Below, piece by piece: positions 8,866-27,635 of a DNA stretch of 35,159 bases. Each line of letters begins with the position of its first letter. Position 1 is the stretch's first letter. This DNA comes from Acidimicrobiia bacterium (GTDB taxonomy: Bacteria; Actinomycetota; Acidimicrobiia; Acidimicrobiales; Bin134). Location of the stretch: contig JAJEDQ010000100.1 in NCBI GenBank assembly GCA_022821445.1, positions 1-35,159 on the forward strand, given 5' to 3'. The position numbers and the translations under genes were made by a program. A model generated the notes under the pieces. That model did not search any database, was not told the origin of the DNA, and was given only the letters and a program-made list of their open reading frames with translations.

Positions 8866-9079
8866 CAGGCAGGGCCACATGAAATAGAGGGCGAACTCTG
8901 CCGGGGAGTGGTGGTCATGGCCAGGCTCTTTCGCCCAAGCTTGGGCTTAGGCGTATTGCGCAGAGTCCCTTCACCGCGGGCGAATCTGATGAGCAAGTCC
9001 CAAGAAACTCAAAATGAAGGCATTTAAGAGAGAGTAAGCAATCACCACTTTTGTGGCAGCAAATCATCAACTACGTAGG
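8866..9079. other. Spacer at the left edge of the RiPP cluster
   Basis: A 214-bp gene-free stretch. It contains a perfect 14-bp palindrome GCCCAAGCTTGGGC (8933-8946) and two copies of a GGGCGAA(C)TCTG motif (near 8889 and 8977). From about 8995 to 9075 the sequence becomes clearly richer in A and T than either side, which fits a promoter for the following hydroxylase gene, but no clean -35/-10 pair is visible. Confidence 0.5.
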
Positions 9080-11497
9080 ATGTCCAACATGGAAGCACCC
9101 ATTTCCGCCTCCGCCGTCGCAATGAGCAGTCGGGTCGTCGAGCCCTCGGTCTCGAACGCGCTCCCGCATTTCGCTCCCCTCGCGATCTTCCCGCTCATCG
9201 TCTGCGCCGCCATGTACGGCGGGTGGTGGCTCGCGGGTCCTCTCGCCCTCTTCATGCTCACATACCAATTCGACAGGGCCCTCGGACTAGAAGAGCGGAA
9301 TATGGATCCGGCTACCACCAGCGAGAGCCAACTGTTCCCGTACAAGCTATCGCTATGGCTGTGGGGCGCAGTCTGGCCAGCGGCCTTCATATTCTCACTC
9401 TGGCAGATGCTGGTCTCTGACCACCTATCCCTGTGGGAGATCGGGCTTATGGCCGCGATCCTCACACTCGTGGCTCAGTCGGTCTTCATAGTGGGCCATG
9501 AACTGGTCCACCGGCGCGTCCCCTGGGAACGTCGGCTCGGTGAGTTCCTGCTCGCTTCCTCCTCCTATCCGCATTACGCGACCGAGCACATCTACATCCA
9601 TCATCCCCACGTGTGTACGCCCTTGGACCCCGGCTCAGCGACCAAGGGTGTGTCCTTCTGGAAATACCTGCTCCCGGAGCTGAAGCACAATCTTCTGGGT
9701 GCCTGGCGTTTCGAACAGCGCCGGCTGAAACGCCGTCAGCTGCCGCTGTGGCACTACACGAACTCGTTCTGGCGCTACGCCGTGGGAATTGTCTTCTGGT
9801 ACGGACTGGTATTGTGGATGGGCGGCCCGTTAGCACTGCTGGTCTACCTCCTCCTGTGCGGCTCCGTGGTCTTCTCGATGAAGATCAGCAATTACGTACA
9901 GCACTACGGTTTGCGGCGCGTCCGCTTACCCAACGGCAGGTTCGAGTCGGTGAAGCCGCGGCACTCTTGGAGCGCCTCCTACAGGCTCAACAACTGGATG
10001 AACTACAACATGCAGCGCCACGCCGATCACCACATCTCGAATCAGCACTACCCGCTCTTGCAGCATCATGGCGAGTCAGCCTCGCCACTGCTTCCGGGCA
10101 ACTACACCCAGATGAACAGTCTGGCGCTCTCGCCCAAGCATTGGTTCAAGACCATAGATCCCCTGCTGGATCGTCAACGCGCGCAGTTCTATCCCGAGAT
10201 CAGCGACTGGAGCACCTACGACAGCCCGGCCTTCGCGGCACGCCCCGCCGCCTTCGACGTCATCGTGGAGATTCACACCGCGGCCCCCCGTCTCGCCACC
10301 TGGGTCAACCGCTCTCCAGAGCTGCTCGACAGGTTGCGAGACCGGGAGTTCACCGACCTGGAGTTGCCGGACACGATCGGGCCGGACCCGGAATCCGAGG
10401 CGGCCGCGCGCCGCGGGCTGGCGCGCCTGTACGGGATACACGAGCTGAGCCTCTCCGAGATGAAGGACCAGCTTGCCAACATCCCCGTGCAAGACAGCCG
10501 CGAGGCCGTTGCGGCGGCGCTCGAGTGGTCGAATGGCAAGGTCTTCCAAGTTGCCGTTCACGTGATGCGCAGGAGTTTGTCGATCGTCGAGGCGGGTACG
10601 GCGCTGTCGCGCATCGCGGAGGCCTCCATTGCGTTCGTGCTGGCCGCGGTGGAGGAGGACTTCGCCGATCGGGGTCGGCCGGGCGGCAGCGGCGGGATGG
10701 CAGTCGTCGTTCTGGGGAATCTGGCGAGCGGCCAGGCGATGCCGGGCGAGCCGCTCGATGTGCGGTTCGTGTACGAAGGCGGCTCGGCCAAGCACCATCA
10801 GGCGCTGTGCCTCCGCTTCCGCAAGGCACTCCGTGCGCTGTCGAACAACAACCTGCTTCTGGCGCCAGTCCCGCGCAGCGGCTTGGCTGAGGGCCAGACT
10901 CTCGCGGAGTTCGCGCAACAGATCGGAGATCCAGGTTCGGGCCGCGACTTAGTGGCGCAGGCGAGGGCACGGTGCGTGCTCGTGTCGGGTGATGATGAGA
11001 TCGGGCAACGGGTCGAAGAGGCGCTGCGCGATGCGTTGGCAGACAGCGCTGCCCGCGAGCTGCTACTAGCTGAGTTGCGCGAATCCGGCGAGGGCGTCAA
11101 GCCGGATCTGCTGTCGATTGCCGAGATGGACGGCGGTCTCCAAGATGTTGAACGCGCCGCCCTATATTTGCAGATGATGCCCGATGGCCATACACCCGAG
11201 ATGCTGGATTGCGATGCGGGTTCTGCTTTCCGAAAGGCAAGCGAGCACGGGTTGATCGCCGAAGATGCAGCCGAGCGGCTGGCGGCGGCGGCGGAGCTGT
11301 GGATGAACCTCTGCGGCTTGTTGCGGATCGTCCGCGAGGACGGGCCCGCGGCCAGCACTGCGGCCTCCAGGGCGGATGCGGCGATCGCCGAGGCCTGCGG
11401 ACTGGCTGGTGTTGATGCGCTGGCCGCGACGATCCGCGATACCGCATCCCGCACTGCCGCCGACCTCGACGCGCTTGCCCATGTCCCGGCCCGCTAG
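9080..11497 (+). CDS. AlkB-type membrane di-iron hydroxylase fused to a degenerate GlnE-like domain
   Basis: An 805-residue fusion. Residues about 30-375 are an alkane-hydroxylase (AlkB) domain with several membrane helices and the full histidine set: HELVH (140-144), EHIYIHH (169-175), NYVQHYG (271-277) and MQRHADHH (311-318); CTPLDPGSA and LLPGNYTQM also match AlkB. Residues about 390-800 follow the order of glutamine synthetase adenylyltransferase/deadenylylase: SPELLDRL, a helical stretch, AVVVLGNLASGQAMPGEPLD (the nucleotidyltransferase core, where GlnE has GxxGxxEL..GSDLDL), ARARCVLVSGDDEI, and MDGGLQDVERAALYLQM (GlnE GGLxDIEFxxQYLQL). The first catalytic Asp is replaced by Pro, so activity is doubtful. 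ATG 9080 or 9089 (AGGA before it) are both possible. Next gene overlaps by 17 nt. Confidence 0.85.
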   Translation: MSNMEAPISASAVAMSSRVVEPSVSNALPHFAPLAIFPLIVCAAMYGGWWLAGPLALFMLTYQFDRALGLEERNMDPATTSESQLFPYKLSLWLWGAVWPAAFIFSLWQMLVSDHLSLWEIGLMAAILTLVAQSVFIVGHELVHRRVPWERRLGEFLLASSSYPHYATEHIYIHHPHVCTPLDPGSATKGVSFWKYLLPELKHNLLGAWRFEQRRLKRRQLPLWHYTNSFWRYAVGIVFWYGLVLWMGGPLALLVYLLLCGSVVFSMKISNYVQHYGLRRVRLPNGRFESVKPRHSWSASYRLNNWMNYNMQRHADHHISNQHYPLLQHHGESASPLLPGNYTQMNSLALSPKHWFKTIDPLLDRQRAQFYPEISDWSTYDSPAFAARPAAFDVIVEIHTAAPRLATWVNRSPELLDRLRDREFTDLELPDTIGPDPESEAAARRGLARLYGIHELSLSEMKDQLANIPVQDSREAVAAALEWSNGKVFQVAVHVMRRSLSIVEAGTALSRIAEASIAFVLAAVEEDFADRGRPGGSGGMAVVVLGNLASGQAMPGEPLDVRFVYEGGSAKHHQALCLRFRKALRALSNNNLLLAPVPRSGLAEGQTLAEFAQQIGDPGSGRDLVAQARARCVLVSGDDEIGQRVEEALRDALADSAARELLLAELRESGEGVKPDLLSIAEMDGGLQDVERAALYLQMMPDGHTPEMLDCDAGSAFRKASEHGLIAEDAAERLAAAAELWMNLCGLLRIVREDGPAASTAASRADAAIAEACGLAGVDALAATIRDTASRTAADLDALAHVPAR

Positions 11498-12341
11498 TTC
11501 GGCCCGGCAGCAGGAGCTTGATGACTTCTTAGCGGCAAGCCGAGAGCGTCTCGACTCCCACCTCGACGAAGCACTGCCGGCAGCGACGCAGCACCCTGCC
11601 GAGCTTCACCAGGCCATGCGCTATGCCGTCTTCCCAGGCGGCAAGCGTGTGCGTCCGGCGTTGGCTTTCGGCGCCGCCATAGCTGCGAGGGCAGATCCCG
11701 AGCTAGCCATGCCGGTTGCGGGTGCAGTGGAACTGGTCCACGCCTGTTCGCTGGCGCTCGACGACCTGCCGTCCCAGGATGACAACCCCGTCCGCCGAGG
11801 ACAGCCCGCGGTCCACATTGCCTTCGACCATTCGACGGCTGTTCTGGCCGGCAGTGCCCTTCTGGTCGAAGCGTTTGCTCAATGCATGCGGCTTTCTGAC
11901 CCCACGGCAGCCACCGCCGTAGGGGCCCGCCTCACCAGCGCGATCGGATCTGGGGGTTTGATCGGCGGACAAGTCGATGACCTTGCCTTCAACCCCGCAG
12001 AAACAAGGCTGGAGGACGTCGAGTTCATCCATTTGAGAAAGACCGCCGCGCTATTCAGCTTCTCGGTTTGGGGCGGTGGTGTCTCCGCGGGCTTATCGGG
12101 CGAGCAACTCGGTCGCCTCGACACCTTCGGCCGCGCCTACGGGCTTGCCTTCCAGATAGTCGACGATTTGTTGGATGAAGACTTGGATGAGTGCTCAATT
12201 CTGCATGTGTTTACGCGGGAGCAGGCACGGGGGCACGTCCGTGAGTTGCTTCACAAGGCGGTACACGAGGTCGAGGCGTTCGGGCCGGGCGACTGGGTGC
12301 TTGCGGGGATGGCGCAACGCCTCGAAGGAATGATTCCTTAG
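11481..12341 (+). CDS. Polyprenyl (farnesyl/geranylgeranyl-type) diphosphate synthase
   Basis: A 286-residue all-helical trans-prenyltransferase that joins isopentenyl diphosphate to an allylic diphosphate. FPGGKRVRPAL, the first aspartate motif DDLPSQD (94-100) followed by DNPVRRGQPA, KTAALFSFSV and the second motif FQIVDDLLDED are all present, so the enzyme looks active. The DDxxxxD form of the first motif is the bacterial short-chain type; product length cannot be read safely. The ATG at 11481 lies inside the 3' end of the hydroxylase fusion, indicating translational coupling. The gene converges on the ABC transporter with only 4 bases between. A role in making an isoprenoid for the RiPP cluster is inferred from position. 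Confidence 0.9.
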   Translation: MSRPASSARQQELDDFLAASRERLDSHLDEALPAATQHPAELHQAMRYAVFPGGKRVRPALAFGAAIAARADPELAMPVAGAVELVHACSLALDDLPSQDDNPVRRGQPAVHIAFDHSTAVLAGSALLVEAFAQCMRLSDPTAATAVGARLTSAIGSGGLIGGQVDDLAFNPAETRLEDVEFIHLRKTAALFSFSVWGGGVSAGLSGEQLGRLDTFGRAYGLAFQIVDDLLDEDLDECSILHVFTREQARGHVRELLHKAVHEVEAFGPGDWVLAGMAQRLEGMIP

Positions 12342-12345
12342 ACAC

Positions 12346-15276
12346 TCAAGCCACCTGTCCGCTCATCAAGTCTTGGAACACGCCCGGGATCTCGACCAGC
12401 TCCGTAAAGGAGCCCTCCTGAACAACCTTGCCCTCCCGCATCACAAATATGCGGTCGGCCTTCAGCAAAGTGGAACGGCGGTGCGCGACCATGATCCGTG
12501 TCGAAGTCAAGCGCGACAGATTTTCGAGGATTCTGGACTGCGTCTCAGTGTCCAGCCAGCTCGTGGCCTCGTCCAGGATCAGGACGCGGGGATCGCGAAT
12601 CAGCGCATGGGCGATCTGGATTCGCCGGCTCTCTCCGCCGGAGATGACGGACGCTGCCGCGCCTATCGGAGTCAGCAAGCCCATTGGCATCGCCACGATC
12701 TCTCGGTCGACAGCAGCAAGCTGCGCCGCCCGCCACGCGTCCTCCGCAGTGAAGCCTTCGTGACCGCCCGCGATGTTGTCCCACAGATCATCGGGGTGGA
12801 GCCGCACATTCTGCGGCACCACCCCGACCTGCTGGCGCACTGACTTGAGATCGAGATTTTGAAGGTCGCGCCCATCGAAGTAGACCGATCCACTGGAAGG
12901 CCGTTCCAGCCCGAGCGCGAGCCGCAACAGTGTGCTCTTTCCAGAGCCAGACTCGCCGACGATGGCGATGAACTCACCCTTTCGGGCCCGAATCGATACT
13001 TCGTCGAGGATCAGCGGACCGTCTGCGTCGTAGCGGAAGGAGACTTTGTCGAAGACGACCTCGCCGTGCAGTTCCTCCACGAACTCCCCTTCAGCCCTCG
13101 TCTCGGTGGTCTCGACCAGCAGTGGCCGCATCTGATTCCATGAGGAGACTAGGGCGGCGAGGGCGCCGAACGATTCACCCAGGCGTATGACTGCCCGTTG
13201 ATAGAGCAAGAACAGAATGAAGATGACGATGAAGTCGCCAGCCGTAAAGGAGTTGGCTCCGAGCAACGTCACGAACAAGATCACCATCGCTCCGGCCAGC
13301 GATGGCAGAGCCGCCCCGAATGCTCGCAGGTGCGTCTCTAGGGCGTCGAGCTCCAGTTCCGTGCGCTTCTGCTCGCGATAGCCCCGCGCCCAGGCCGCGA
13401 AGCCGGAGCTCTCGGCACCATCCACGCGCAGTCTCGGAATGCCGCTGATAAGTTGGGACAATCGGCCGGTCAAACTCCGAACGATTTTAAGCCTGCGGTC
13501 AAGCAGGCCGACCTGCCGTAGTCCGAGTGCCACGGTCATGAACAGCGACAAGAGGCCGAAGGCGGCCGTCAATCCTCCGATCCGGGCATCCCGCCAAGCT
13601 ATGAGCACGAACACGGGCGACAGGAACAGGATCGACAGCACCCCATTGCCGATCACGCCGTGCGTAGCGTCGCGCATATTCTGAAACGTCATGCCCCGCA
13701 AGGCCAGATCGTTGGCCGGGTACTTCCGCAGCACGCTGGTCGGCAGCCGCAGCAACCGGTCCCAGAACACGGCTTCCATACGGGAACTCACGCGGGCCTC
13801 GATGCGCATCAGGGACATACCTTGGAGGACGTGAAGCAGCATACGGACGAGACCGAAGGCCACCAGGGCCAGGCTGATCCCATAAAGCAACCCGGCATCG
13901 CCGGCCGGGATCGCCTCGTCCGCGACAAAACCGACCGCTAGGGCCGGCAGCAACATGATCAGACCGCCCAGCAACCCGGTCACCACGAAGCGGGCCAAGT
14001 CCGAGCCCAGCCCTTTTCGTGCGACGCCCCACAGATCGCGCCAACTCACGTCGGCAGACTTCAGTGAGGGATAGAAGGCCCAAGCCTTCGGTCGCAGCGA
14101 CGCGGCGTTGGCGGCTGTGATCCGCCGCTTGCGCCCACTGACGGGATCGACTTCCCGGTAGTTTCCGATCCCGCTGGGCAACAGCGCCACGGGTCGGCCG
14201 TCCTCGGTGCGGAACCCCAGCATGGCACCGCTGTCGCCGACCCACCAGCGGTCTTCCCGAGCAAGCCGCACCTTTCGGCCCCGCACTCCGGACGTGTTGA
14301 GCACCCGAGCGAGAACCGCGTCGGCCGTGGAGCGTTCCGGGTCGGAGGAACCCAGCGGAAGCTGGAAGTCAATGCCTGCGTGCCTGCCAATCACTCTCAG
14401 GACATCGTGCAAGCCCAAGTCCGCATCTTCGGTTTCTTCGACCAGGCGAGCGTAGACGTTGAAGAGGCGGCGGCGAGCCGCTTCCTCATCGCCTCGGCGG
14501 CTGATGGTCTGCGCCCGCGCCAGATTCGCCTGATCGACAACGGCCAGTTGGCGGTTCAGTCGTTCGAGTGAGAACGCGACCTGATTGAAGGCATCCAGGG
14601 CCGGAAGCAGCAGCCTGCGCTCGGCAAGTTCGGTTGAGGAAGCCGGGGTGATGTGTGCTTCCTGTGTCAACGTGAGCCATGTGGCAGGTGTGAGCGGCAA
14701 TGCGCCGCCGACGCCATCAGAGACCGTTTCGTTTTCGGCGAGGTCGACCAGGTCCATGAACAGACCCGCCCCAAGCGGCAGCCCGGTGGCCCACACCATG
14801 TCGCGCCGTGCGGCCAGTCTGCCGCTTCTTGTCGCTGGCGCTTCACCGGGCTCAAGAAGCACGTCCATCCGCGGATAATGCGTGATGTCGCGAGCCAGCA
14901 CCGCCGAGATGTCCGAGATCCAGGCGTCCACCTGTATGGCCAGTTCCGCGCTGCTGATTGCATCGAGCCGGGAAAGGGGGAGACGCCGCAGAACGGTGCC
15001 TGACATTCCCTTGGCGATTATCCCCAGAGACGTCTCATCGCCCTGTGGCGCGATTCCGGGCAGGAGGCGACCGGCACTGGCGCGCAGCACATGCTGAAGC
15101 GCAGACTGCTCAACTCCCTCCCGCATTTCGACCAGGAATAGGTCGACCACGCCAGATTCGATGAACCAGACAAATTCGGGATCGCCCATGTTGACGGGCT
15201 GATTGGCGGCGCATGTCACCGCCGTGCCCCACTCGGCCGCGGCCTGACCGGGCGTCAGGTCCGACGGTCCGGTCAT
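12346..15276 (-). CDS. NHLM-type ABC transporter, ATP-binding/permease subunit without peptidase
   Basis: A 976-residue half-transporter of the type that accompanies NHLP-family precursors. The first 400 or so residues are a long soluble extension, starting with a beta-rich cyclic-nucleotide-domain-like part; membrane helices follow (VVTGLLGGLIMLLPALAVGF onward). The C-terminal ATPase has GESGSGKST (Walker A), QNVRLHPDDLWDN (Q loop), ISGGESRR (signature, with Glu instead of the common Gln), VLILDEATSWLD (Walker B and D loop) and MVAHR (switch His). It lacks the C39 peptidase, which is in the partner gene upstream, and overlaps that gene's stop by ATGA. Together they are expected to form the export heterodimer. 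Confidence 0.93.
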   Translation of the reverse strand: MTGPSDLTPGQAAAEWGTAVTCAANQPVNMGDPEFVWFIESGVVDLFLVEMREGVEQSALQHVLRASAGRLLPGIAPQGDETSLGIIAKGMSGTVLRRLPLSRLDAISSAELAIQVDAWISDISAVLARDITHYPRMDVLLEPGEAPATRSGRLAARRDMVWATGLPLGAGLFMDLVDLAENETVSDGVGGALPLTPATWLTLTQEAHITPASSTELAERRLLLPALDAFNQVAFSLERLNRQLAVVDQANLARAQTISRRGDEEAARRRLFNVYARLVEETEDADLGLHDVLRVIGRHAGIDFQLPLGSSDPERSTADAVLARVLNTSGVRGRKVRLAREDRWWVGDSGAMLGFRTEDGRPVALLPSGIGNYREVDPVSGRKRRITAANAASLRPKAWAFYPSLKSADVSWRDLWGVARKGLGSDLARFVVTGLLGGLIMLLPALAVGFVADEAIPAGDAGLLYGISLALVAFGLVRMLLHVLQGMSLMRIEARVSSRMEAVFWDRLLRLPTSVLRKYPANDLALRGMTFQNMRDATHGVIGNGVLSILFLSPVFVLIAWRDARIGGLTAAFGLLSLFMTVALGLRQVGLLDRRLKIVRSLTGRLSQLISGIPRLRVDGAESSGFAAWARGYREQKRTELELDALETHLRAFGAALPSLAGAMVILFVTLLGANSFTAGDFIVIFILFLLYQRAVIRLGESFGALAALVSSWNQMRPLLVETTETRAEGEFVEELHGEVVFDKVSFRYDADGPLILDEVSIRARKGEFIAIVGESGSGKSTLLRLALGLERPSSGSVYFDGRDLQNLDLKSVRQQVGVVPQNVRLHPDDLWDNIAGGHEGFTAEDAWRAAQLAAVDREIVAMPMGLLTPIGAAASVISGGESRRIQIAHALIRDPRVLILDEATSWLDTETQSRILENLSRLTSTRIMVAHRRSTLLKADRIFVMREGKVVQEGSFTELVEIPGVFQDLMSGQVA

Positions 15277-17501
15277 CCGACCAGCTCTGACTGCACGAAG
15301 CGATGGTACGTACCGTCCATATCCGCCATCAGCTCATCGTGGGTGCCGCGCTGTACAGCCACACCCCCGTCGAGCACGACGATCTGGTCGCAGTCGCGAA
15401 CCGTACTCAACCGATGAGCGATAATCAGGCAGCTGATGCCTCGGCGGCGCAGCGCGTCGTCGACATACGCCTCCGTCGCGGCATCGAGGGCGCTCGTCGC
15501 CTCGTCGAGAACCAGCACCGTCGGGTTTCCAACCAATGCACGGGCGATTTCCAGGCGCTGCCGCTGTCCACCACTGAAATTGACTCCATCTTCTTCCACG
15601 AGCGCGGAATACCCGCGGGGTCGCCTGAGAATGTCGTCGTGGATTGCTGCGTCACGGGCCGCAGCGACAATGTCATCGTCAAGCACCGCCGGGTTCCACA
15701 GCGAGAGGTTGTCGCGCACGGTGGCGGAGAAGAGGACGATGTTCTGCTCCACAACTGAAATGGAGCGGGCCAGCACTTCGTCGGGAATCTCGCTTCGGAG
15801 TCGGCCATCGAACAGAATCTCCCCCGACCAGGGGTGCAGGATGCCCGTGACGAGACGGGACAGCGTCGACTTCCCCCCCCCGCTCGGACCCACCACCGCG
15901 ATGCGCTGGCCCGGCTTGAAGGCGAGGCTGAAATCCCTGATAACTGGGGGGCGGTTCCGGCTGTAGCCGAAGGTCACACCGCGCAATTCCACGTGCCCGG
16001 CCAAACGCAGGCGCCCGTTGAAGGTGGCGATCGACTGTGATGCTCCATCCCGGCGGGCCACGCCTGGAACCTCCGGCGTCTCAATGATGTCGTCCAAGCG
16101 CTGCATGTCGGTCAGAAGTGTCTGGCGCTCGCGCGCCAACTCGGTGAAGCGCCCTACGGGTTCCAGAAACAGGATCGCAACGAGGTAGAAAGCCACCAGC
16201 GCACCCAGTGTCAACTCGCCGGATATGACCTTCGCCGCACCGAGCGCCAGAACCGCGGCACTCCCCAGGAACACAAACAGATCCGGCACGACAGCCATGA
16301 AATTGCTCAGTTCCGAGACCCGCTGGCGCACCTGCAACTCACGCGCCTGATGGCCGCTCCAGCGAATGAACATGGGGTCTTCTGACCCCGTCATCCGAAG
16401 GGTGTCGGCCTGATGCAGCATGACCGTGCCGACACCCATCAGCAAGCCCTGCTCGCGGCGCAGGGCGGAGGTCTCGTCGGATCGGGCCCGCGCGACCGGG
16501 GTTGAAATAAACACATTCAAGAGGGCGAGAGCCAATACCACGAGCGCCAAGAGGAAGTCGTAGGCGATCATGACGGCGAGGAACACGATGCTCATGGTGA
16601 CGTTGATCAACACGCCCAGAAACCGTTCCGACAGGCCTTGCGCAACCTTGTCGACGGACAGGATGCGAGCGGTCAGGTCACCGACATGTCGGTGGCTTAG
16701 ATAGTCCACCGGCAGACGCAGCAGCCGCGATACGGAGCGATTGCCCAGGACGATCGAGATACGGGTCGCCAACCGCCCCAGGAACCGCTGCTTCAGCCAG
16801 GTAACTCCATACACAAGCAGACCCGATCCCGCCAGGGCCCCCGCGAGGCCAAGCCCCCTCGGGTCGCCATCGTCCAGCAAACGGTCGATGAACAGGTTGG
16901 CCGCGAACGGTGCTGCCAGGGCCAGCACGGCCAGGATCAGCCCACAGACGATGGTCCACCCCAAACCGCTCCAAGCACCGTTCAACCAAAGCGGGAGGCG
17001 CCGAAGCAGCCCGACAGGAGCACCCGAGGGCTGGAAGGCCGGACCCGGACGAAACGTCAGTGCCACCCCCGTGAACCCCTGGTCGAACTCCTGCGGGGAT
17101 AGCTTTCGGTGGCCGGAGACCGGATCGTTCAAGTAGATCCACTTGCGGTCGAACCCCTCCAGGACCACGAAGTGGTTGAATTCCCAGAAGATGATCATCG
17201 GAAGTGGCATCTGCTTGAGGCGGCTCACCGGCACGCTCCAACCCTTGCCCTCGAGACCGTGGCGCTTTGCGGCCCGAATCAGCCCGGCGGCCGTGGAGCC
17301 ATCCCGGCCGACTTCACATGTATTGCGGAGTTCCGTCAGCGGCACCCAATGTCGGAAATGAGCCAACACGCTGCCGAGGCAGGCCGCGCCGCACTCGGTT
17401 GCGCTGGTCTGAAGAAAAATGGGCGTGACGACGCGCCGACCTCGCCCGTTGTCACGCTCTCGGCCGCCACGCCGGGCTTCTCGCCAGTCATGCCATGACA
17501 T
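15273..17501 (-). CDS. NHLM-type ABC transporter with C39 leader peptidase
   Basis: A 742-residue peptidase-containing ABC exporter that should cut the precursor after its double-glycine-like site and export the core. The N-terminal C39 domain has QTSATECGAACL (Gln31 and catalytic Cys37), FNHFVVLEGF (His110) and YLNDP (Asp126). Membrane helices occupy about residues 165-440. The ATPase has GPSGGGKST (Walker A, a Gly-rich variant), FSGGQRQRLEIARAL (signature), VLVLDEATSALD and IAHRLSTV. ATG at 17501 follows an AGGCG site and lies 7 bases after the HlyD stop. Family and role are secure; cleavage specificity is inferred. Confidence 0.95.
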   Translation of the reverse strand: MSWHDWREARRGGRERDNGRGRRVVTPIFLQTSATECGAACLGSVLAHFRHWVPLTELRNTCEVGRDGSTAAGLIRAAKRHGLEGKGWSVPVSRLKQMPLPMIIFWEFNHFVVLEGFDRKWIYLNDPVSGHRKLSPQEFDQGFTGVALTFRPGPAFQPSGAPVGLLRRLPLWLNGAWSGLGWTIVCGLILAVLALAAPFAANLFIDRLLDDGDPRGLGLAGALAGSGLLVYGVTWLKQRFLGRLATRISIVLGNRSVSRLLRLPVDYLSHRHVGDLTARILSVDKVAQGLSERFLGVLINVTMSIVFLAVMIAYDFLLALVVLALALLNVFISTPVARARSDETSALRREQGLLMGVGTVMLHQADTLRMTGSEDPMFIRWSGHQARELQVRQRVSELSNFMAVVPDLFVFLGSAAVLALGAAKVISGELTLGALVAFYLVAILFLEPVGRFTELARERQTLLTDMQRLDDIIETPEVPGVARRDGASQSIATFNGRLRLAGHVELRGVTFGYSRNRPPVIRDFSLAFKPGQRIAVVGPSGGGKSTLSRLVTGILHPWSGEILFDGRLRSEIPDEVLARSISVVEQNIVLFSATVRDNLSLWNPAVLDDDIVAAARDAAIHDDILRRPRGYSALVEEDGVNFSGGQRQRLEIARALVGNPTVLVLDEATSALDAATEAYVDDALRRRGISCLIIAHRLSTVRDCDQIVVLDGGVAVQRGTHDELMADMDGTYHRFVQSELVG

Positions 17502-17508
17502 TTCACGC

Positions 17509-18051
17509 CTATCCGAGGCCGAGGAGCGTGGCGGGCGAGTATCGTCCGTGGACGATCCGAGCCCGGCACGGCGTGCCGTCGGGGAGATCGAGGTCGGACG
17601 CCGATGGGAGGCTGATTGCGATTAGTCGCGTGAAGTCCGCGTCTGCGTCCGTTGCCAGATCCCCAACCCGCGACCTTCCGGCGGTAATCGCGCTGACGCT
17701 CCCTTCCAGCCGCCGGGTAGCGCCGTCGGTTAACTGCACTTCAACCGAAGCCTGCATGCCGGGTTGCAGGAGTCGGGCCACGCGCGGTGCGGCGAACATT
17801 ATGGCTTGGGGGTTGAGATCTCGGGGAACGGCGGCGGCGGTCTGCCTCCACGGTGCGAGCAGCACGCAGTCACGTTCGACTCCGCGGGCCATGCTGCCGA
17901 AAAAGACCCAGGCGATGACGCCGACGAGGATCAATCCTACGGCTGTCAGCACGATGCGTTCGCGGGGTGCCGTGACGCGGAGCAGGCGGTCTAGCTGCTG
18001 CCGGTTGGCACTCGCCTCGATCGCTTGCTCGCGATATGGGTTGTTGAACAC
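17509..18051 (-). CDS. Shortened HlyD-like membrane-fusion protein of the NHLM export system
   Basis: A 180-residue protein whose start (QQLDRLLRVTAPRERIVLTAVGLI) matches the NHLM HlyD family as I remember it: a short cytoplasmic segment and one membrane helix (about residues 32-52). The part after the membrane corresponds to the first outside strand and then, directly, to the C-terminal beta domain (VARLLQPGMQASVEVQL ... GSVSAITAG). The alpha-helical hairpin and lipoyl portion that make family members about 400 residues long are absent. The reading frame is intact, with no visible frameshift. GTG start at 18051, with a G-rich ribosome site about 12 bases upstream. It leads the transporter operon and is divergent from the precursor. 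Confidence 0.75.
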   Translation of the reverse strand: MFNNPYREQAIEASANRQQLDRLLRVTAPRERIVLTAVGLILVGVIAWVFFGSMARGVERDCVLLAPWRQTAAAVPRDLNPQAIMFAAPRVARLLQPGMQASVEVQLTDGATRRLEGSVSAITAGRSRVGDLATDADADFTRLIAISLPSASDLDLPDGTPCRARIVHGRYSPATLLGLG

Positions 18052-18189: not shown

Positions 18190-18477
18190 ATGGACACTAT
18201 GTTGGAATCTGCAATCCAGACGGCAGAAGAGATGCAGCGGTCGCTGATCGCGAAGGCCGGCGAGGATGCCGACTTCCGTGTGCAGCTCGTTTCCGATCCG
18301 AAGGCCGCCGTCAAACAGGAGTTCGGCATCGACGTACCCGACTTCATCAACTTTCAGGTACACGAAAGCACAATGAATGATCTGCACCTCGTGCTGCCCC
18401 CTGGCCCCGATGCCTGGATGGAACTGGACGAGGAGAGGCTGGAAGCGATCTCTGCCGGCCTTTGCTGCGGCGGGTAG
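18190..18477 (+). CDS. NHLP-family RiPP precursor peptide with a predicted five-residue core
   Basis: A 95-residue precursor. Residues 1-90 match the nitrile-hydratase alpha-subunit-like leader family (NHLP): LIAKAGEDADFRVQLVSDPK, then AAVKQEFGIDVPDFINFQVH, then LHLVLPPGPDAW and LDEERLEAISAG. The leader normally ends in VAGG or similar, so the cut is expected after Gly90, leaving LCCGG as the core. Two adjacent Cys are suitable substrates for the YcaO enzyme encoded nearby. The protein has no nitrile hydratase metal site (no CxxCSC), so it is not an enzyme. ATG 18190 is set by AAGGAGG. It converges on the 377-residue gene with a 7-base gap. Confidence 0.92.
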   Translation: MDTMLESAIQTAEEMQRSLIAKAGEDADFRVQLVSDPKAAVKQEFGIDVPDFINFQVHESTMNDLHLVLPPGPDAWMELDEERLEAISAGLCCGG

Positions 18478-18484
18478 CCAGCAG

Positions 18485-19618
18485 CTACTTGGCGGCCTCA
18501 TCGGCCGCGGCTTGAGCCAGAAGCGAAGGGAACACGAGGCAGAACACGTAGGCCTTGACCTCTTCAAAGCGGTCGCCGACCAGCACCATCTTGAAGTGGT
18601 GTATGCCTCTAACAACAAGCAGCATGCCGCGGCGTCCGAATACCGTTTCTACTCCCGGCCATGACTCCATGAGCGCGGACAATTTCTCTGGTATGACCAA
18701 TCCCGGTACGCGCAAGCCGTCGATGACTCCCATCCAGGGCTCGATGTCCTTGACCCATTGCGCGTCCCCCGCGTAGTAGCTCACGCCCAGCCCAGGTCTC
18801 ACACCCCCCTCATCGATGTCGAAGTGCGCCGCCAAGTGGGCGAAAGCGCCTCGTGCCTCGAGGTCAGCGACAAACGGAGCACAGCCTTCGGGCTGTCCGG
18901 GCCAGTTGGCGCGCTCCATGAGCGATGTCAGCTCATGTGTGCTCCTAATGCCCGTGATCGTCATTCGCAAGGCCCTCGGTCGATCCGGAAATCCTCCCAC
19001 GGAGCCGACCTGCGCGCCCGACGGGATGGCCAGGAACAGCTTCTGGGCGTGTCGGCGCTCTGCGCTGTCGGGTGCCCACCCGCAAGCGGCGGAAACCGCG
19101 TCGACCATGACACCGAGAGCTTCCGACTCGTGCGCCGAACCAGGATCGGTCAGTAAGCCATCGGCGGGATAGAGGAAGAGCCCTGGGTCCGGGAACGGCC
19201 CAGGATGCGCCGGATCGATGTCATACTCCAACATCAACTTCATGTCGGCGATTCGGTGCAGAGCGGCCCCTTTGCGTCCCATCTCCTTCAGAAGACCGAC
19301 AACCGCCTTCGCCGACACGTCTTCAGATCGCGACCGAGACCACTCCTCGAAATGCGCCACAGACCGGCTCCCGTGGAACAGCGCAAGGCCCAGATCAGCC
19401 CTTGGTTCGGCTTCATGCAGCCGCAGTTCGAAACCGAAACCAGGGGTCGCGAGGCTGATCGGTAGACCGCTCGAGCGCTCTATCAGCCTGTCCCATCCAG
19501 CACCATCGATCAGTGCGGGGGGAATCCGGCTCTTGAACTGCACCAGCAGCTCGCCGACGGAATCCGCTTGGGCCAGCATCTGCTCCTCAACGCTGGCGCG
19601 AGCTTCATCAAAGTTCAT
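18485..19618 (-). CDS. RiPP-cluster protein of unknown function (377 residues)
   Basis: I do not recognise this protein. It lacks a signal peptide and membrane helices. It alternates beta strands (FGFELRLHEA, MKLMLEYDID, KLFLAIPSG, RALRMTITGI, RPGLGVSYYAG) with helices, and ends with LLVVRGIHHFKMVLVGDRFE and EVKAYVFCLVF. I associate the closing pattern (a strand with IxHxK, then EAKAY-like) with uncharacterised proteins near NHLP/Nif11 precursors, but this is unverified memory. The length and alternating strands would also allow an aromatic-prenyltransferase-like barrel, which would fit the polyprenyl synthase; this is a guess. AAAGGA precedes the ATG. It follows the YcaO gene by 43 bases in one probable operon. 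Confidence 0.7.
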   Translation of the reverse strand: MNFDEARASVEEQMLAQADSVGELLVQFKSRIPPALIDGAGWDRLIERSSGLPISLATPGFGFELRLHEAEPRADLGLALFHGSRSVAHFEEWSRSRSEDVSAKAVVGLLKEMGRKGAALHRIADMKLMLEYDIDPAHPGPFPDPGLFLYPADGLLTDPGSAHESEALGVMVDAVSAACGWAPDSAERRHAQKLFLAIPSGAQVGSVGGFPDRPRALRMTITGIRSTHELTSLMERANWPGQPEGCAPFVADLEARGAFAHLAAHFDIDEGGVRPGLGVSYYAGDAQWVKDIEPWMGVIDGLRVPGLVIPEKLSALMESWPGVETVFGRRGMLLVVRGIHHFKMVLVGDRFEEVKAYVFCLVFPSLLAQAAADEAAK

Positions 19619-19661: not shown

Positions 19662-21950
19662 TCAGGCGATGACCGGGATGGGATTCAGCTGGTCCTCCGA
19701 AAGTGTAGTCCCCCGCCAACCCATCGAAACAGGCACATCGAACAACCGTCCGGGTGCCAAACGTGCCCAGAAGTGGCGCATGCCCGGCACGATGACGCGC
19801 ACCACCGGCATGCCTATGTCAGGCCGGGTCTGGTCGAGCACCAGAAACTCCATGTCGCGGGCCTCGACAAGGGCGCGGCAGTGCTCCACGTCTTCGCGGG
19901 TGTCCGAGGTATCGGGAACCGGATAGTCCAGTTTGCCTCGCCGCGCGGCACCGGACGTCGGTGCCAGCCAGGGGTGATCGACCAGCTTCCCGGTCTGCCA
20001 CCACCAGCGGGTCGTGGGGTCGTCGACGGCGTAGTCCGGTCCGCGTCGGGCCGGTCCACTCACCCATTGCAGGCACTGGTTCAATTCGCATACCGCGCGC
20101 AGGGCCGCGATATGCGGGTCGGTGTGCGCACCAGCACCATAGATGATGTCCTCGGTGCCTTCGCCGGTCCGGTGGGAGACCGCCACGAAGGCCGGAATGC
20201 CGAAGTCCCCAGTGGCGTCCAGCACCCACATCTCGCGCTCATGGCGGCCGTAGTGTGCCGGAGCGGACGCCAAGTACTCGTCGTCAAAGCTCGACAGATC
20301 TACCTCCGGCAAGCCCAGCCGGTTGTACCACCAGATGGCGAATGCATCGCGTTCCACGAGTTCGAGGAACGCTTGGAAGATCGCCTCCTCGAGCGTGTTC
20401 CCCGCGGCGCACCCGTTCGAGTCCGCCTTGAGACTGGAACCGTCGCCTCCCTCCCCGGCCATTCCGTAGAGGATTGATGTGGGCACATACCGGTGCCGGC
20501 CTTGGGTGAGCGACCACACGGGTGACCAGTCGATCTCTGCTTCGGGATCGAGCCGGGGCGGCACGAAGTTGTAGGGATGGCCGCGGGCGTTGATCTGCTC
20601 CGCATCATCGAGTTGCCGGTCGCTGAACAGCTGGACCTCGTTCGGGTGAACCGCCTCCGCCTCTCCCGCTTCCTCGAAGTCCTCGAGACTGCGCCGACAA
20701 CGGATCTCGTCGCCGTGAAACGCGCCGCTGTAGCGCTCGATCGCCTCGCAGAGGGCGCTCACCTCCGCCTGCTGAGGTGTGCTGCCCTTGCCGGCGCTCT
20801 TGCTCCGCAGGCTGCGCCGCAGAGAACTGAGACTGCGGCTCCTGAGGGCGTAGTTACTGCCCGCCCAGTACACGTGCAGCCAGGGGTCGGCCTCGTCGGT
20901 CGCGCGGGTGAGCCACGTCACCACGCCGGTGATCGGGCTCACGAGGTGCCGATACTCGGCCAGCGTTGCCTCGGGAGGGGCCACGCGCTGGCCGCCGCTG
21001 CTGTGTGCCGGTTTGGGACTCGACTTCAGCCGCACCGGCTCCGCCGGCCGGTCGGCGCGGTACCGGGCCTCATCGCCGCACGAGAAACATTGCGGGCGAC
21101 GCATCGCTGGATGCAGCCGGCTCTCAAGGCTTGCCACATCCAGCGAGATCGCATGCTCGTGTATGGGCGCCATCTCCGCAAGCACCAGCCACTTGGCGAC
21201 CTCGGCCGCGGCCAAACCGCACACCGACTCCAGCATGGCCGGTGCCATGGCGCGGGGGCGCACTGCCGAGGACTCCCCACCGAGGTTGCGCAGGAAACTA
21301 TGGACCTCCTTGTGGGCTCGAAGGCGATAAGCGAGACACGCCCAGCACGGACCTCCTTCGGCCGGCCTAAAGACCGGCCCGAACAGCGGTTGCATGCCGC
21401 CCGGCCTGACCAGGATCCAGGGCGTGCCGGATTCGAGGTGGCGGCGGTTGATCGCGTCGTGGTCCTCGTCGAGGTAGTCCTCGCATAGGATCACGGAGAC
21501 AGAAGGATGGGCGGAGGCCGTCTGGACGCCCAGCGTCCCGAGCTGTCGGGCAAGCGGGCCGGCATCGCCGGGGGTTGCCACCGTGGTCTCTCCCAGACGC
21601 TGCTCCACCCAGCGCGGCGAGGCGCCCAACGACGACCAGTACGCCGCCTGGCTCGGGACCATGCAGTAGTCGCCCGACACGAGATACCCCCGCGACGCCA
21701 AGGCCGTGATCGCGGCCCGGATCTCCGGCGCCGAATGTGCGGGGGCCAGAGCGGCGGCGATCTCAACATGCGTGCGACGCCCGTCGCACAGCGGTATGAG
21801 ATCGCAATGGATCTGCCCGTTGAGCAGTGTGTTGAAGGTCTCGGAGACGAGCAGCAGCTGCTTGTTGCCGATCGGCCGAAACTCAAGGTGAGGCGTGAGA
21901 AGCGGGACCTCGATGTGGCCGCGGTCGGCGGGTGTGGTTCGCTTCAGCAT
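19662..21950 (-). CDS. Fused RRE/E1-like and YcaO azoline-forming cyclodehydratase
   Basis: A 762-residue C-D fusion that turns Cys (or Ser/Thr) residues of the precursor into thiazoline or oxazoline rings using ATP. Residues about 17-95 are a winged-helix RiPP recognition element that should grip the NHLP leader. Residues about 100-300 are the E1-like region with a zinc tetrad CWAC (202-205) and CFSC (288-291). The YcaO half has SAGKGSTPQQAEVSALCEAI (ATP site), SNGCAAGNTLEEAIFQAFLE and LVERDAFAIWWYNR. The chain ends NPIPVIA, reminiscent of the proline-rich tail (PxPxP) of azoline-forming YcaO proteins but not identical. ATG 21950 follows AGGCG and lies 37 bases after the FAD oxidase. Confidence 0.93.
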   Translation of the reverse strand: MLKRTTPADRGHIEVPLLTPHLEFRPIGNKQLLLVSETFNTLLNGQIHCDLIPLCDGRRTHVEIAAALAPAHSAPEIRAAITALASRGYLVSGDYCMVPSQAAYWSSLGASPRWVEQRLGETTVATPGDAGPLARQLGTLGVQTASAHPSVSVILCEDYLDEDHDAINRRHLESGTPWILVRPGGMQPLFGPVFRPAEGGPCWACLAYRLRAHKEVHSFLRNLGGESSAVRPRAMAPAMLESVCGLAAAEVAKWLVLAEMAPIHEHAISLDVASLESRLHPAMRRPQCFSCGDEARYRADRPAEPVRLKSSPKPAHSSGGQRVAPPEATLAEYRHLVSPITGVVTWLTRATDEADPWLHVYWAGSNYALRSRSLSSLRRSLRSKSAGKGSTPQQAEVSALCEAIERYSGAFHGDEIRCRRSLEDFEEAGEAEAVHPNEVQLFSDRQLDDAEQINARGHPYNFVPPRLDPEAEIDWSPVWSLTQGRHRYVPTSILYGMAGEGGDGSSLKADSNGCAAGNTLEEAIFQAFLELVERDAFAIWWYNRLGLPEVDLSSFDDEYLASAPAHYGRHEREMWVLDATGDFGIPAFVAVSHRTGEGTEDIIYGAGAHTDPHIAALRAVCELNQCLQWVSGPARRGPDYAVDDPTTRWWWQTGKLVDHPWLAPTSGAARRGKLDYPVPDTSDTREDVEHCRALVEARDMEFLVLDQTRPDIGMPVVRVIVPGMRHFWARLAPGRLFDVPVSMGWRGTTLSEDQLNPIPVIA

Positions 21951-21987: not shown

Positions 21988-23331
21988 CTATGCGCCGACG
22001 CCGAAGGGCATGTCTGCCGAGTGGAAGACGTGGTTGGGATCGAACTCCCGCTTCCACCTGATGCCCTGCCCGAGCATCTCGCCGTAGTGTTGCTCCCACT
22101 GCTCCGGGCTGTAGCCGACGCTGCCGGACAGGTAGCTCTTGGCACCGAGCCCGACAAGCTCTCGGTCAACGTCCTCCAGCTTCTTGGCCAGCTCGATTGC
22201 CTTCTCACGCTCGAACTCGCCCATCACGGCGAGGACGGAGTACGAAATCAGCCGCTTCTGCGGTGGACGCATGAACAGCGGCGCCTCAACCTCGCCCCTC
22301 CCGATCGGGTACAGCCCGATCCAGCTCCAGGCGCGACGCGGCATCGAGTCCGGAGGCAGCATTGGTTGGGCGAGCAGTCTTGGCAAAGCCTCCCACGGCA
22401 GCATCCAGTCGCGCCACGGGTGGTAGTGCAGCCAACTGAAAGACCACGAGGGGTACATTCCGGCCCGCCCAACGCTGGCGGTGTCCCTCGTGTATACAAG
22501 TTCGTCGTATCCCAACGACTCAAGGGCCCTGTCGTCGTCGGGCAGTTCGTCGTACTCGTTGCTGGCGAGCAGGACGATCAAGTTCTCGCGGTGGCGGAGT
22601 TCGGCCCGCAGGTGGTCGAAGCGATCCGATTCCATCAGGAGATCGAGATCCTCAACAAACCGCTCGAAGTCGCGGTAATGGAGTTCGTACTGCCGAAACC
22701 GCGCCCCTGCCGGACGGAGCCGGATCCAAGCCTCGGTGATGATCCCGAACTGCCCCTGACCACTCCTGACCGCATTGAAGAGCCCCGCGTTCTGGGTGGG
22801 CGAGCACCGAATCCGCTCGCCGGTGCCGGTCACCACCTCAAGCTGCTCGACCTGTTCGACCTGCGCGCCGTGACGGTGCGATGTGGTTCCTATACCCCCG
22901 GCGGCGAGCGTTCCACCCACTGTCGCCTCGCCGATGTCCACCAGTACCGGCGGCAGCCGTCGCGCGCCCTTCAGCGCGTCCACTACATCGCCCCACCGCG
23001 CCCCGCCCTGCGCGCGCACCAACTCCGAGCCGACGGGTTGGACCCGATTCAAACACGTTGTATCGAGGACCACGCCGCGGTCCGTCAGGCTCCGACCGCC
23101 CTGGGAGTGTCCTCCTCCCCGAATCGCCAGCCCAATCCCGGCACGCCCGGCGCGGTGCACGAGGTTGGCCACTTCCGCCACGCTCCGCGGCGTGGCCACC
23201 GCTTCCGGCACCTGCCGGGTCATCCGTCCGAAGTCGACGGCGCGAGCTTCCCGGTCTTCCAGGCTGCGGGTTGTGCCCGGGAGGAGACGATGATTGCTCG
23301 GCTCACCGACCATCCCACCCCTCTTCCCCAT
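21988..23331 (-). CDS. FAD-linked (PCMH/BBE-like, cytokinin-dehydrogenase-like) oxidoreductase
   Basis: A 447-residue flavoprotein of the PCMH family. IRGGGHSQGGRSL carries the His expected to bind FAD covalently, and VGGTLAAGGIGTTSHRHGAQ with QLEVVTGTGERIRCSP closely follows cytokinin-dehydrogenase order; QGQFGIITEAWIRL continues the FAD domain and KREFDPNHVFHS is the family's C-terminal motif. No secretion signal is visible, so it should act in the cytoplasm. It leads the YcaO operon and could oxidise azolines to azoles or another group on the product. Start is uncertain: ATG 23331 has a -10-like TATTAT 8 bases upstream, which suits a leaderless message; ATG 23313 has an AGAGGGG site. Confidence 0.88.
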   Translation of the reverse strand: MGKRGGMVGEPSNHRLLPGTTRSLEDREARAVDFGRMTRQVPEAVATPRSVAEVANLVHRAGRAGIGLAIRGGGHSQGGRSLTDRGVVLDTTCLNRVQPVGSELVRAQGGARWGDVVDALKGARRLPPVLVDIGEATVGGTLAAGGIGTTSHRHGAQVEQVEQLEVVTGTGERIRCSPTQNAGLFNAVRSGQGQFGIITEAWIRLRPAGARFRQYELHYRDFERFVEDLDLLMESDRFDHLRAELRHRENLIVLLASNEYDELPDDDRALESLGYDELVYTRDTASVGRAGMYPSWSFSWLHYHPWRDWMLPWEALPRLLAQPMLPPDSMPRRAWSWIGLYPIGRGEVEAPLFMRPPQKRLISYSVLAVMGEFEREKAIELAKKLEDVDRELVGLGAKSYLSGSVGYSPEQWEQHYGEMLGQGIRWKREFDPNHVFHSADMPFGVGA

Positions 23332-24148: not shown

Positions 24149-24979
24149 ATGAGTGACGCGTCCACGCTGGCCACAGAGACCATGGCTGCCGCCCGTGCGG
24201 TGGGCGCGGTGAAGATCTACGGGTCGGGGGAGACCGAAGTCAGAGCCCTCAACGGGGTGGACATCACCTTCGAGAAGGGTAAGTTCACCGCCATCATGGG
24301 CCCGTCGGGCTCGGGCAAGTCCACCCTCATGCACTGCATGGCTGCGCTCGACGACCTCACCGAGGGCCAGGCCTTCATCGGCGACACCGACCTGAGCACC
24401 CTGTCGGACAAAGAGCTCACTATGTTGCGCCGCGATCGGGTGGGGTTCATCTTCCAGGCGTTCAACCTGGTCCCCACGCTTAACGCCATCGAGAACATCA
24501 CCCTGCCGATGGACCTGGCCCGACGCGAGCCCGACCAGGAATGGGTCGACAGTGTGATCACCACCGTGGGGCTGCAAGACCGATTGACCCACCGGCCCAA
24601 CGAGCTGTCGGGCGGCCAGCAACAGCGGGTGGCAGTGTCGAGAGCGCTGGCCAGTCAGCCTGAGATCATCTTCGCCGACGAGCCCACCGGGAATCTCGAC
24701 TCCCGCTCGGGCAACGACGTGCTGAAGTTCATGCGCGAAGCGGTGGACGATTTGGGCCAGACCATCGTGATGGTCACCCACGACGCCAAAGCGGCATCCT
24801 TCGCCGATCGGACAGTGTTCTTGGCCGACGGCCTGCTCCGGGGCGAGATGCTCAACCCCACCGCCGATCAGATCCTCGACTACATGAAGATCCTGCAAGT
24901 GGGCCAGTTCGTCAAGGGCATACCAGAGGGGGCCACCATGGAAGAAGTGCTGGAATACATGAGGGATCTGGACGATTAA
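24149..24979 (+). CDS. ABC transporter ATP-binding protein (LolD/MacB type)
   Basis: A 276-residue ATPase that should drive the two FtsX-type permeases encoded next. It has GPSGSGKST (Walker A), FIFQAFNLVPTLNAIENI (Q loop, typical of the LolD/MacB/FtsE group), LSGGQQQRVAVSRAL (signature), IIFADEPTGNLDSRSG (Walker B/D loop) and MVTHD (switch His). An unusual feature is an acidic C-terminal extension of about 45 residues (DQILDYMKILQVGQFVKGIP onward) not found in the shortest family members. The start at 24149 has GAAGGG upstream. It follows the peroxiredoxin by 46 bases and could be cotranscribed with it. Confidence 0.93.
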   Translation: MSDASTLATETMAAARAVGAVKIYGSGETEVRALNGVDITFEKGKFTAIMGPSGSGKSTLMHCMAALDDLTEGQAFIGDTDLSTLSDKELTMLRRDRVGFIFQAFNLVPTLNAIENITLPMDLARREPDQEWVDSVITTVGLQDRLTHRPNELSGGQQQRVAVSRALASQPEIIFADEPTGNLDSRSGNDVLKFMREAVDDLGQTIVMVTHDAKAASFADRTVFLADGLLRGEMLNPTADQILDYMKILQVGQFVKGIPEGATMEEVLEYMRDLDD

Positions 24980-24987
24980 GAAGACGC

Positions 24988-25013
24988 CGAGCACTCCCCC
25001 GCTCCGGTGCTCG
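24988..25013. terminator. Hairpin between the ATPase and permease genes
   Basis: CGAGCAC (24988-24994) pairs perfectly with GTGCTCG (25007-25013) over a 12-base C-rich loop. There is no T run, and the genes on both sides belong together, so this is more likely an attenuator or an RNA-processing site than a full terminator. Confidence 0.4.
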
Positions 25014-25031
25014 TGATCAGGTAGTCGGCTG

Positions 25032-27626: not shown

Positions 27627-27635
27627 AAATAGCTC

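Follow-up and report, generated by a model that had tools for sequence, protein, structure and literature searches.

An AlkB-type hydroxylase and a GlnE-derived part in one frame

We analysed a 35,159-nucleotide stretch of DNA, hereafter the window (Acidimicrobiia bacterium, GenBank assembly GCA_022821445.1, contig JAJEDQ010000100.1, positions 1 to 35,159 of the forward strand), in which one gene joins an AlkB-type membrane di-iron hydroxylase to a part that we assign to the adenylyltransferase (AT) half of GlnE. The frame runs from 9053 to 11497 on the plus strand and comprises 814 codons, counted from an initial GTG at which residue numbering begins; the in-frame ATG codons at 9080 and 9089 are likelier starts than the GTG at 9053. 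The gene and its parts are listed below, with the type of support in brackets (HMM, hidden Markov model).

9080..11497, plus strand: AlkB/pseudo-GlnE fusion gene (first codon of the open frame GTG 9053; ATG codons in frame at 9080 and 9089)
9080..10204, plus strand: AlkB-type membrane di-iron hydroxylase part (Pfam, PDB 8f6t and 8sbb, histidine motifs)
9899..9901, plus strand: Gln283 within NYVQHYG, at the position of the Fe2 ligand Glu271 of solved AlkB (structure-based alignment, ligand list)
10205..10657, plus strand: conserved helical stretch of the GlnE AT half, residues 385–535 (identity, omega, HMM)
10658..10972, plus strand: relaxed, predicted inactive nucleotidyltransferase core, residues 536–640 (identity, lost catalytic residues, omega)
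10745..10762, plus strand: GEPLDV, residues 565–570, remnant of an S-D-L-D type motif (alignment)
11123..11494, plus strand: C-terminal helical tail, residues 691–814 (missing or replaced in several relatives)

The AlkB part reaches to about residue 384 and GlnE-like sequence begins at about residue 385. Pfam matched FA_desaturase at residues 127–329 (5.9e-23), and among solved structures the AlkB part matched PDB 8f6t (1.2e-47) and 8sbb (1.1e-34). The GlnE family PF03710 matched residues 468–578 (2.7e-5; 24.1 bits against a cut-off of 24), and matched at 3e-6 when the C-terminal part was searched alone. In alignment A1, which holds 16 fusion rows and excludes L052 (a contig-end fragment), L054 (AlkB only, with broken frames) and the G007, G340 and G355 copies, 15 of the 16 members matched PF03710 at 1e-3. 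The Pfam, PDB and hhalign matches thus agree with a reading made earlier from the letters of the DNA (the sequence-only reading), which had placed AlkB and a GlnE-derived part in one frame.

The fusion was counted at 27 places, the window included, across separate assemblies.

Fusion places, group 1: the window, G007, G340 and G355
Fusion places, group 2: L038–L051 and L053 (15 of 17 loci of one search)
Fusion places, group 3: G461:C40, G461:C186, G448:C1:453k, G453:C102, G458:C20, G457:C126, G646 and G536

L052 is an additional fusion fragment outside these places. Because the fusion recurs in other assemblies, and because in the window and many of these both parts are read through as a single open frame, the joining of two genes by a sequencing or assembly error, a hazard that the sequence-only reading had flagged, is ruled out, and the fusion is real. 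What speaks for such an artefact is a frameshift within the graft that splits the G340 frame and the stops carried by the G457:C126 copy, and we regard its probability as negligible; the L051 fusion runs off its contig end. No paper on an AlkB–GlnE fusion was found in a literature search limited to open-licence papers. Other candidate GlnE-like fusions, weak matches in G405 and G027, look like GlnD and were rejected.

The histidine motifs of the window AlkB are GHELVHRR, EHIYIHHPH, NYVQHYG and MQRHADHH, and the nine histidines across the four motifs are retained in 16 of 16 A1 rows, in keeping with the full set of motifs that had been read from the window. The ligands of FtAlkB, as given in the portion of the structural paper cited here, are nine histidines and Glu271 (PMC10113152). 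At the position of this Fe2 carboxylate, all 19 distinct fusions examined have glutamine (NYxQHYG or DYxQHYG). AlkB-only frames have glutamate there in 31 of 32 cases with a readable motif; three further frames were unreadable. The lone glutamine among them belongs to a frame-broken Loktanella AlkB, and glutamine is therefore not unique to the fusions. A changed chemistry at this Gln-for-Glu di-iron site is possible. At four loci, a second AlkB-like protein with NYLEHYG and no GlnE part lies a few kilobases upstream of the fusion (L042:5854-6477, L043:6109-6732, L044:5563-6186 and L045:4942-6081).

The graft as a probable half of an alphaproteobacterial GlnE

The sequence-only reading had described a whole GlnE-like region following GlnE in order. 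The homology and the order stood, and the extent did not, as the graft is only one GlnE half rather than both, and we assign it to the C-terminal AT half. About 430 residues after AlkB are homologous to GlnE: hhalign gave 99.6% over 366 columns with the AT half and 99.6% over 342 columns with the adenylyl-removing (AR) half, the latter with a slightly better E-value, whereas three unrelated controls gave 0.2–0.3%. L077, whose longest frame is not GlnE, was dropped from the GlnE set. The graft also matched the GlnE structure PDB 3k7d at 1.6e-16 by profile (0.063 by single sequence), so that the GlnE match anticipated for the C-terminal part was recovered. PRK14108 was the best NCBIfam model for the window protein and four relatives, with 1.5e-17 for the window, far below the model cut-off.

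To assign the half, we searched a profile of the fused part against 190 genomes of the class of G461 (labelled Alphaproteobacteria bacterium CAR1_bin_3), of which 28 matched at E 1e-40 or better; the 17 loci taken forward were the best-scoring of those 28, and form a selected, high-scoring set. These 17 GlnEs scored 140–175 bits against the fusion profile in their C-terminal (AT) half and 8–35 bits in their N-terminal half. The GlnE of G461 itself (L135) scored 282.7 bits. An HMM of the helical part alone found all 17 (E 1e-16 to 6e-9) and L135 (5e-37), always in the C-terminal half. By comparison, in a separate set of 32 GlnEs, the 31 besides L135 scored at most 65.2 bits in their best domain.

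A maximum-likelihood tree of 54 rows placed 23 of 23 fusions in one clade (100/100), with L135 adjoining (100/99). Its rows were the 23 fusions and 31 GlnEs (14 of the 32-GlnE set and the 17 alphaproteobacterial ones); L126, L052, G007, G340 and G355 were omitted, and the midpoint root served for drawing only. The best explanation of these comparisons is that the graft was gained once, from the AT half of an alphaproteobacterial GlnE. Descent from the host's own GlnE was rejected. The window genome has a two-halved GlnE of 983 amino acids that is of another type (PRK14109, over its cut-off), presumably actinobacterial, and that yields only 24.3 and 20.9 bits per half. A host origin is further opposed by G446 and G455 (labelled Gemmatimonadales and Palauibacter; completeness not given), which have the fusion and no other PF03710 match.

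A predicted dead active site and a constrained helical stretch

The window fusion protein contains MDGGLQDVERAALYLQM. We located by alignment the three catalytic aspartate positions, which we take to be those of the nucleotidyltransferase fold. All three were present in 31 of 31 GlnE AT halves of the tree set, and in each half of 24 of 24 GlnEs of another set, against 0 of 23 fusions. The third aspartate is absent in every fusion. At the first position the fusions have Glu (14), Ala (4), Asp (3; L049, L115 and L123), Pro (1; the window) or Ser (1), the second aspartate is kept in 14 of 23, and the first and second occur together only in L123. The R-L-R-P motif is missing in 23 of 23 fusions and is already altered in L135. 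The loss of the first aspartate by change of GSDLDL to GEPLDV had been noted from the window, and GEPLDV does lie at residues 565–570; the damage was understated, as more than this residue is gone. By these residues, the active site of the graft is predicted to be dead.

Constraint is unevenly distributed along the graft. In A1, the helical stretch at residues 385–535 has 63% mean pairwise identity and 44 invariant columns of 151, and the core has 42% (residues 536–580) and 41% (residues 581–640), with 8 invariant columns. We estimated omega by a simple Nei–Gojobori (NG86) count on ten hand-picked pairs, a rough measure with no correction for codon bias, leaving out L051, L052, G340 and G355. 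Omega was 0.06–0.31 for AlkB, 0.05–0.36 for the helical part (defined in nine pairs) and 0.20–0.65 for the core. It was higher in the core than in the helical part in 9 of 9 defined pairs, and higher in the core than in AlkB in 9 of 10; in 6 of 9 pairs the helical part was at or below AlkB. The helical stretch is thus about as constrained as the AlkB part, and the core is relaxed.

Losses follow the same pattern. The tail is missing or unrelated in L038–L041 and L049, the G007 fusion ends shortly after the core motif, running on into the prenyl-diphosphate synthase, and the G355 fusion is shortened. Despite these losses of the tail or of some of the core, the helical part persists in all of these copies, and it is the piece that no unbroken copy examined has given up. 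Where the tail is kept, its omega is 0.11–0.19 in three pairs (L042–L045, L042–L043 and L047–L050) and 0.35 in L043–L044. No redox-type cysteine set is conserved in the graft; cysteine recurs at two columns only, in 12 and 13 of the 16 rows.

The fusion and srp-type proteusin genes

In the window, the fusion gene sits in an srp-type proteusin (NHLP) cluster for a ribosomally synthesized and post-translationally modified peptide (RiPP). Its neighbours are as follows.

11481..12341, plus strand: polyprenyl diphosphate synthase (PF00348, 1.9e-36; chosen start ATG 11481, 17-base overlap with the fusion end)
12346..15276, minus strand: NHLM-type export ABC transporter 2 (best NCBIfam TIGR03797, 640.1 bits, below the cut-off of 709.4)
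15273..17501, minus strand: NHLM-type export ABC transporter 1 with C39 peptidase (PF03412; best NCBIfam TIGR03796, 828.7 bits, below the cut-off of 853.3)
17509..18051, minus strand: putative HlyD-like export accessory, named from position and look alone (relative beside ABC transporter 1 in most loci)
18190..18477, plus strand: SrpE-like proteusin precursor, with LDEERLEAISAG followed by LCCGG (core boundary by analogy with SrpE)
18485..19618, minus strand: 377-residue protein with a predicted ABBA prenyltransferase fold (no family match)
19662..21950, minus strand: YcaO cyclodehydratase with leader-binding part (PF02624, 1.2e-97; TIGR03604 and TIGR03882 over cut-off)
21988..23331, minus strand: FAD-linked oxidoreductase (PF01565; relatives near the cluster in G340, G355 and L045, fragment match in G007)

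A PDB sequence search with the 377-residue protein gave no match; from its predicted fold it is likely to be an unrecognized prenyltransferase family. Members of this family occur in two copies in L048, L049 and L053, and in L053 an MPAB/Lcp-type protein (rubber oxygenase family) lies between two of them (16206-17405, plus strand). The prenyl-diphosphate synthase was seen next to the fusion at four places only: the window, L039, G007 and G340.

A link between the fusion and NHLP precursors, proposed from the window alone, was borne out at the genome level: an srp-type YcaO and a precursor were present in 10 of 10 fusion genomes tested (10 of 22 fusion genomes). Of 397 genomes from the window's order, only four have the fusion, and these same four are the only ones with a YcaO at 80% identity or more; three others have a YcaO at 37–44% and no fusion. 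The stricter expectation that the fusion always lies beside a precursor failed: an SrpE-like precursor or srp-type YcaO is close to it at 23 of 27 places and not at the other four, which rules out a strictly obligate neighbourhood.

Fusion-bearing metagenome-assembled genomes, most of them presumably from sponges (judged partly from titles), are labelled Palauibacter, Gemmatimonadales, Gammaproteobacteria, Porisulfidus, Opitutales, Binatia, Thiotrichales, Vicinamibacteria and Alphaproteobacteria (G461). Labels may err, as the AlkB part of L041 ('Gammaproteobacteria') is 99% identical to that of L040 ('Gemmatimonadales'); these near-identical fusions under different labels reflect either a recent transfer or a mislabelled bin. 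Between the window and G340 and G355, glucose-6-phosphate isomerase is 55–56% identical and YcaO 80–82% (71% in one G355 piece). G455, G456 and G446 gave no isomerase match at 1e-10, yet the AlkB parts of L038, L039 and L040 are 76–77% identical. High YcaO and AlkB identity against low or undetected isomerase identity points to horizontal spread of the fusion. The isomerase is an imperfect yardstick: it had no match in 7 of 17 genomes, and the comparison is weakened by G450 (labelled Binatia), whose isomerase, at 60%, is nearer than those of the order mates G340 and G355.

Several other genes were observed around the fusions. An NHLP leader joined to a part with weak squalene-hopene cyclase/prenyltransferase toroid similarity was found by Pfam in L040 (14889-16187, minus strand) and L050 (4446-6188, plus strand), and a protein of the same kind was located by leader HMM in L041 (14950-16251, minus strand). 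An MMPL-family exporter with a sterol-sensing-type match, a hint of a hydrophobic product, lies near the fusion in L045 (16133-18472, minus strand) and L050 (12646-14976, minus strand). At L105:5285-11793 the fusion shares an operon-like arrangement with genes for LolA_like, an ABC ATPase and two permeases of FtsX type, of which one carries MacB_PCD; an ABC ATPase together with two FtsX proteins also occurs in the window, at 24149-30356. A solitary fusion copy lies about 1.6 kb from an MbnB/TglH/ChrH-family RiPP enzyme (L104:5830-6672, minus strand).

A candidate docking module on a membrane RiPP oxygenase

The AT half of GlnE naturally handles a protein substrate. Given that catalysis appears lost and the helical part is constrained, docking is the simplest reading of the graft. 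We propose that, in an srp-type proteusin pathway, the AlkB-type di-iron oxygenase once acquired the AT half of an alphaproteobacterial GlnE, and that the graft then lost catalysis and became a protein-docking module, presumably on the cytosolic side. The helical part at residues 385–535 would hold a pathway protein, the strongest candidate being the SrpE-like precursor, held by its long proteusin leader, and the docked precursor would be brought next to the membrane active site. AlkB may then oxidize a hydrophobic group of the peptide, which could be a prenyl group in lineages that have both the synthase and the ABBA-fold protein, and a core side chain elsewhere. The prenyl group is an attractive target in the window's lineage. 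Among possible guests the precursor ranks first, since all fusion genomes tested also encode one. Taken as a whole, our best explanation is that a membrane RiPP oxygenase carries a pseudo-adenylyltransferase as its docking module, with the precursor as likeliest guest; we hold it tentatively and consider it a little short of probable.

Several observations weigh against parts of this proposal. The window YcaO already has a leader-binding part (TIGR03882), and SrpI, in the portion of the paper cited here, binds the leader without any RiPP recognition element (RRE) (PMC10858898); an extra docking part is thus unnecessary in principle. Of the separate set of 32 GlnEs, 21 match better in their N-terminal half, and the AT assignment therefore depends on the tree and the alphaproteobacterial GlnEs. 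The LR-P motif is already missing from L135, so that its absence from the fusions is partly inherited and is not in itself a loss after fusion. In 3 of 9 pairs omega is higher in the helical part than in AlkB, and in the window–L038 pair the helical part (omega 0.36) and the core (0.40) hardly differ. Four places have no precursor or srp YcaO in the fetched stretch: a precursor lies about 13 kb away in G536 and about 18 kb away in G453:C102, on the same contig in both, about 22 kb away in G448:C1:453k, and on another contig in G458:C20. Finally, the fetched stretches of L040, L041, L046 and L155 yielded no ABBA-fold protein, and the synthase was seen at four loci only, so a prenyl target cannot be general.

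The graft could instead dock another partner, such as a redox protein feeding the di-iron site or a cluster enzyme (YcaO or the ABBA-fold protein), in a membrane-side complex. It sits at the AlkB C terminus, where other AlkBs bear a fused rubredoxin according to the cited portions of two AlkB papers (PMC8918992, PMC10113152), and the fusion and YcaO genes are same-strand neighbours in L042–L050 and L053; against this, YcaO is on the opposite strand in the window, G007, G340, G355, L040 and L041. We consider such a partner unlikely, if still worth weighing. Slightly less likely is a scaffold for folding or oligomerization, or a slowly decaying passenger of which only the first helices matter, for AlkB stability. 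Relaxation of core and tail, and loss of the tail in several lineages, would fit it; the 44 invariant helical columns are many for a linker, the tail is constrained in three of the pairs that keep it (0.35 in L043–L044), and AlkB-only frames from 27 loci in the window's order do without any graft. That the graft is still a sensor of nucleotide or nitrogen status gating the hydroxylase is very improbable: GlnE descent, the second aspartate in 14 of 23 fusions and glutamate at the first position in 14 of 23 are consistent with it, but the third aspartate is gone throughout and the core is relaxed.

A broader version of the docking proposal would have the catalytic half of a regulator turned into a leader-recognition module unrelated to RREs and spread horizontally among sponge symbionts of several phyla, acting on an oxidized, in some lineages prenylated, thiazoline peptide through an altered Gln-for-Glu AlkB site. 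We regard it as doubtful. The fusion is a clear case of an enzyme half that was grafted and then, as predicted here, reduced to a non-catalytic part, and it gives an entry point to srp-type peptides, the products of which are cryptic. With glutamine in place of the Fe2 glutamate, the question arises whether the fused AlkB still hydroxylates, and the modelled ABBA-fold protein predicts prenylation.

Comparison with known systems

The membrane part resembles FtAlkBG (PDB 8f6t; 8sbb) in sequence and in its nine histidines in four motifs, and the C-terminal fusion architecture recalls rubredoxin-fused AlkBs. Known AlkB fusion partners, in the cited portions of the two AlkB papers, are rubredoxin and ferredoxin/reductase (PMC8918992, PMC10113152), and the present architecture is absent among the partners named there. 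The fusions differ from AlkB alkane 1-monooxygenases in having glutamine for the Fe2 ligand Glu271, a GlnE half in place of rubredoxin or ferredoxin as partner, and a gene position within a RiPP cluster. The graft shares with the AT half of PRK14108-type GlnE the order of helical part, nucleotidyltransferase core, GGxxDxE-type motif and helical tail, the best NCBIfam model and its position in the tree; unlike GlnE, the fusion has one half only, has lost catalytic residues and is joined to AlkB.

The srp proteusin clusters (SrpE, SrpC and SrpI), which belong to sponge microbiomes, were reportedly introduced by Nguyen et al. in 2021 (JACS). Like them, the window has an NHLP precursor with an LCC(C) core and a YcaO, and L040, L041, L047 and L050 have the exact LCCCW core given for SrpE in the cited portion of PMC10858898. 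By contrast, the window core is LCCGG, without Trp, and no halogenase (an SrpI-like Trp brominase) was found in the 19 larger open reading frames of the window scanned with Pfam. The AlkB–GlnE fusion, the ABBA-fold protein and the prenyl-diphosphate synthase do not appear in the portions of the srp descriptions considered here. With the RRE leader-binding domains, the graft would share only its proposed role, that of bringing a leader to a modifying enzyme; its ancestry is a different one and leads to GlnE.

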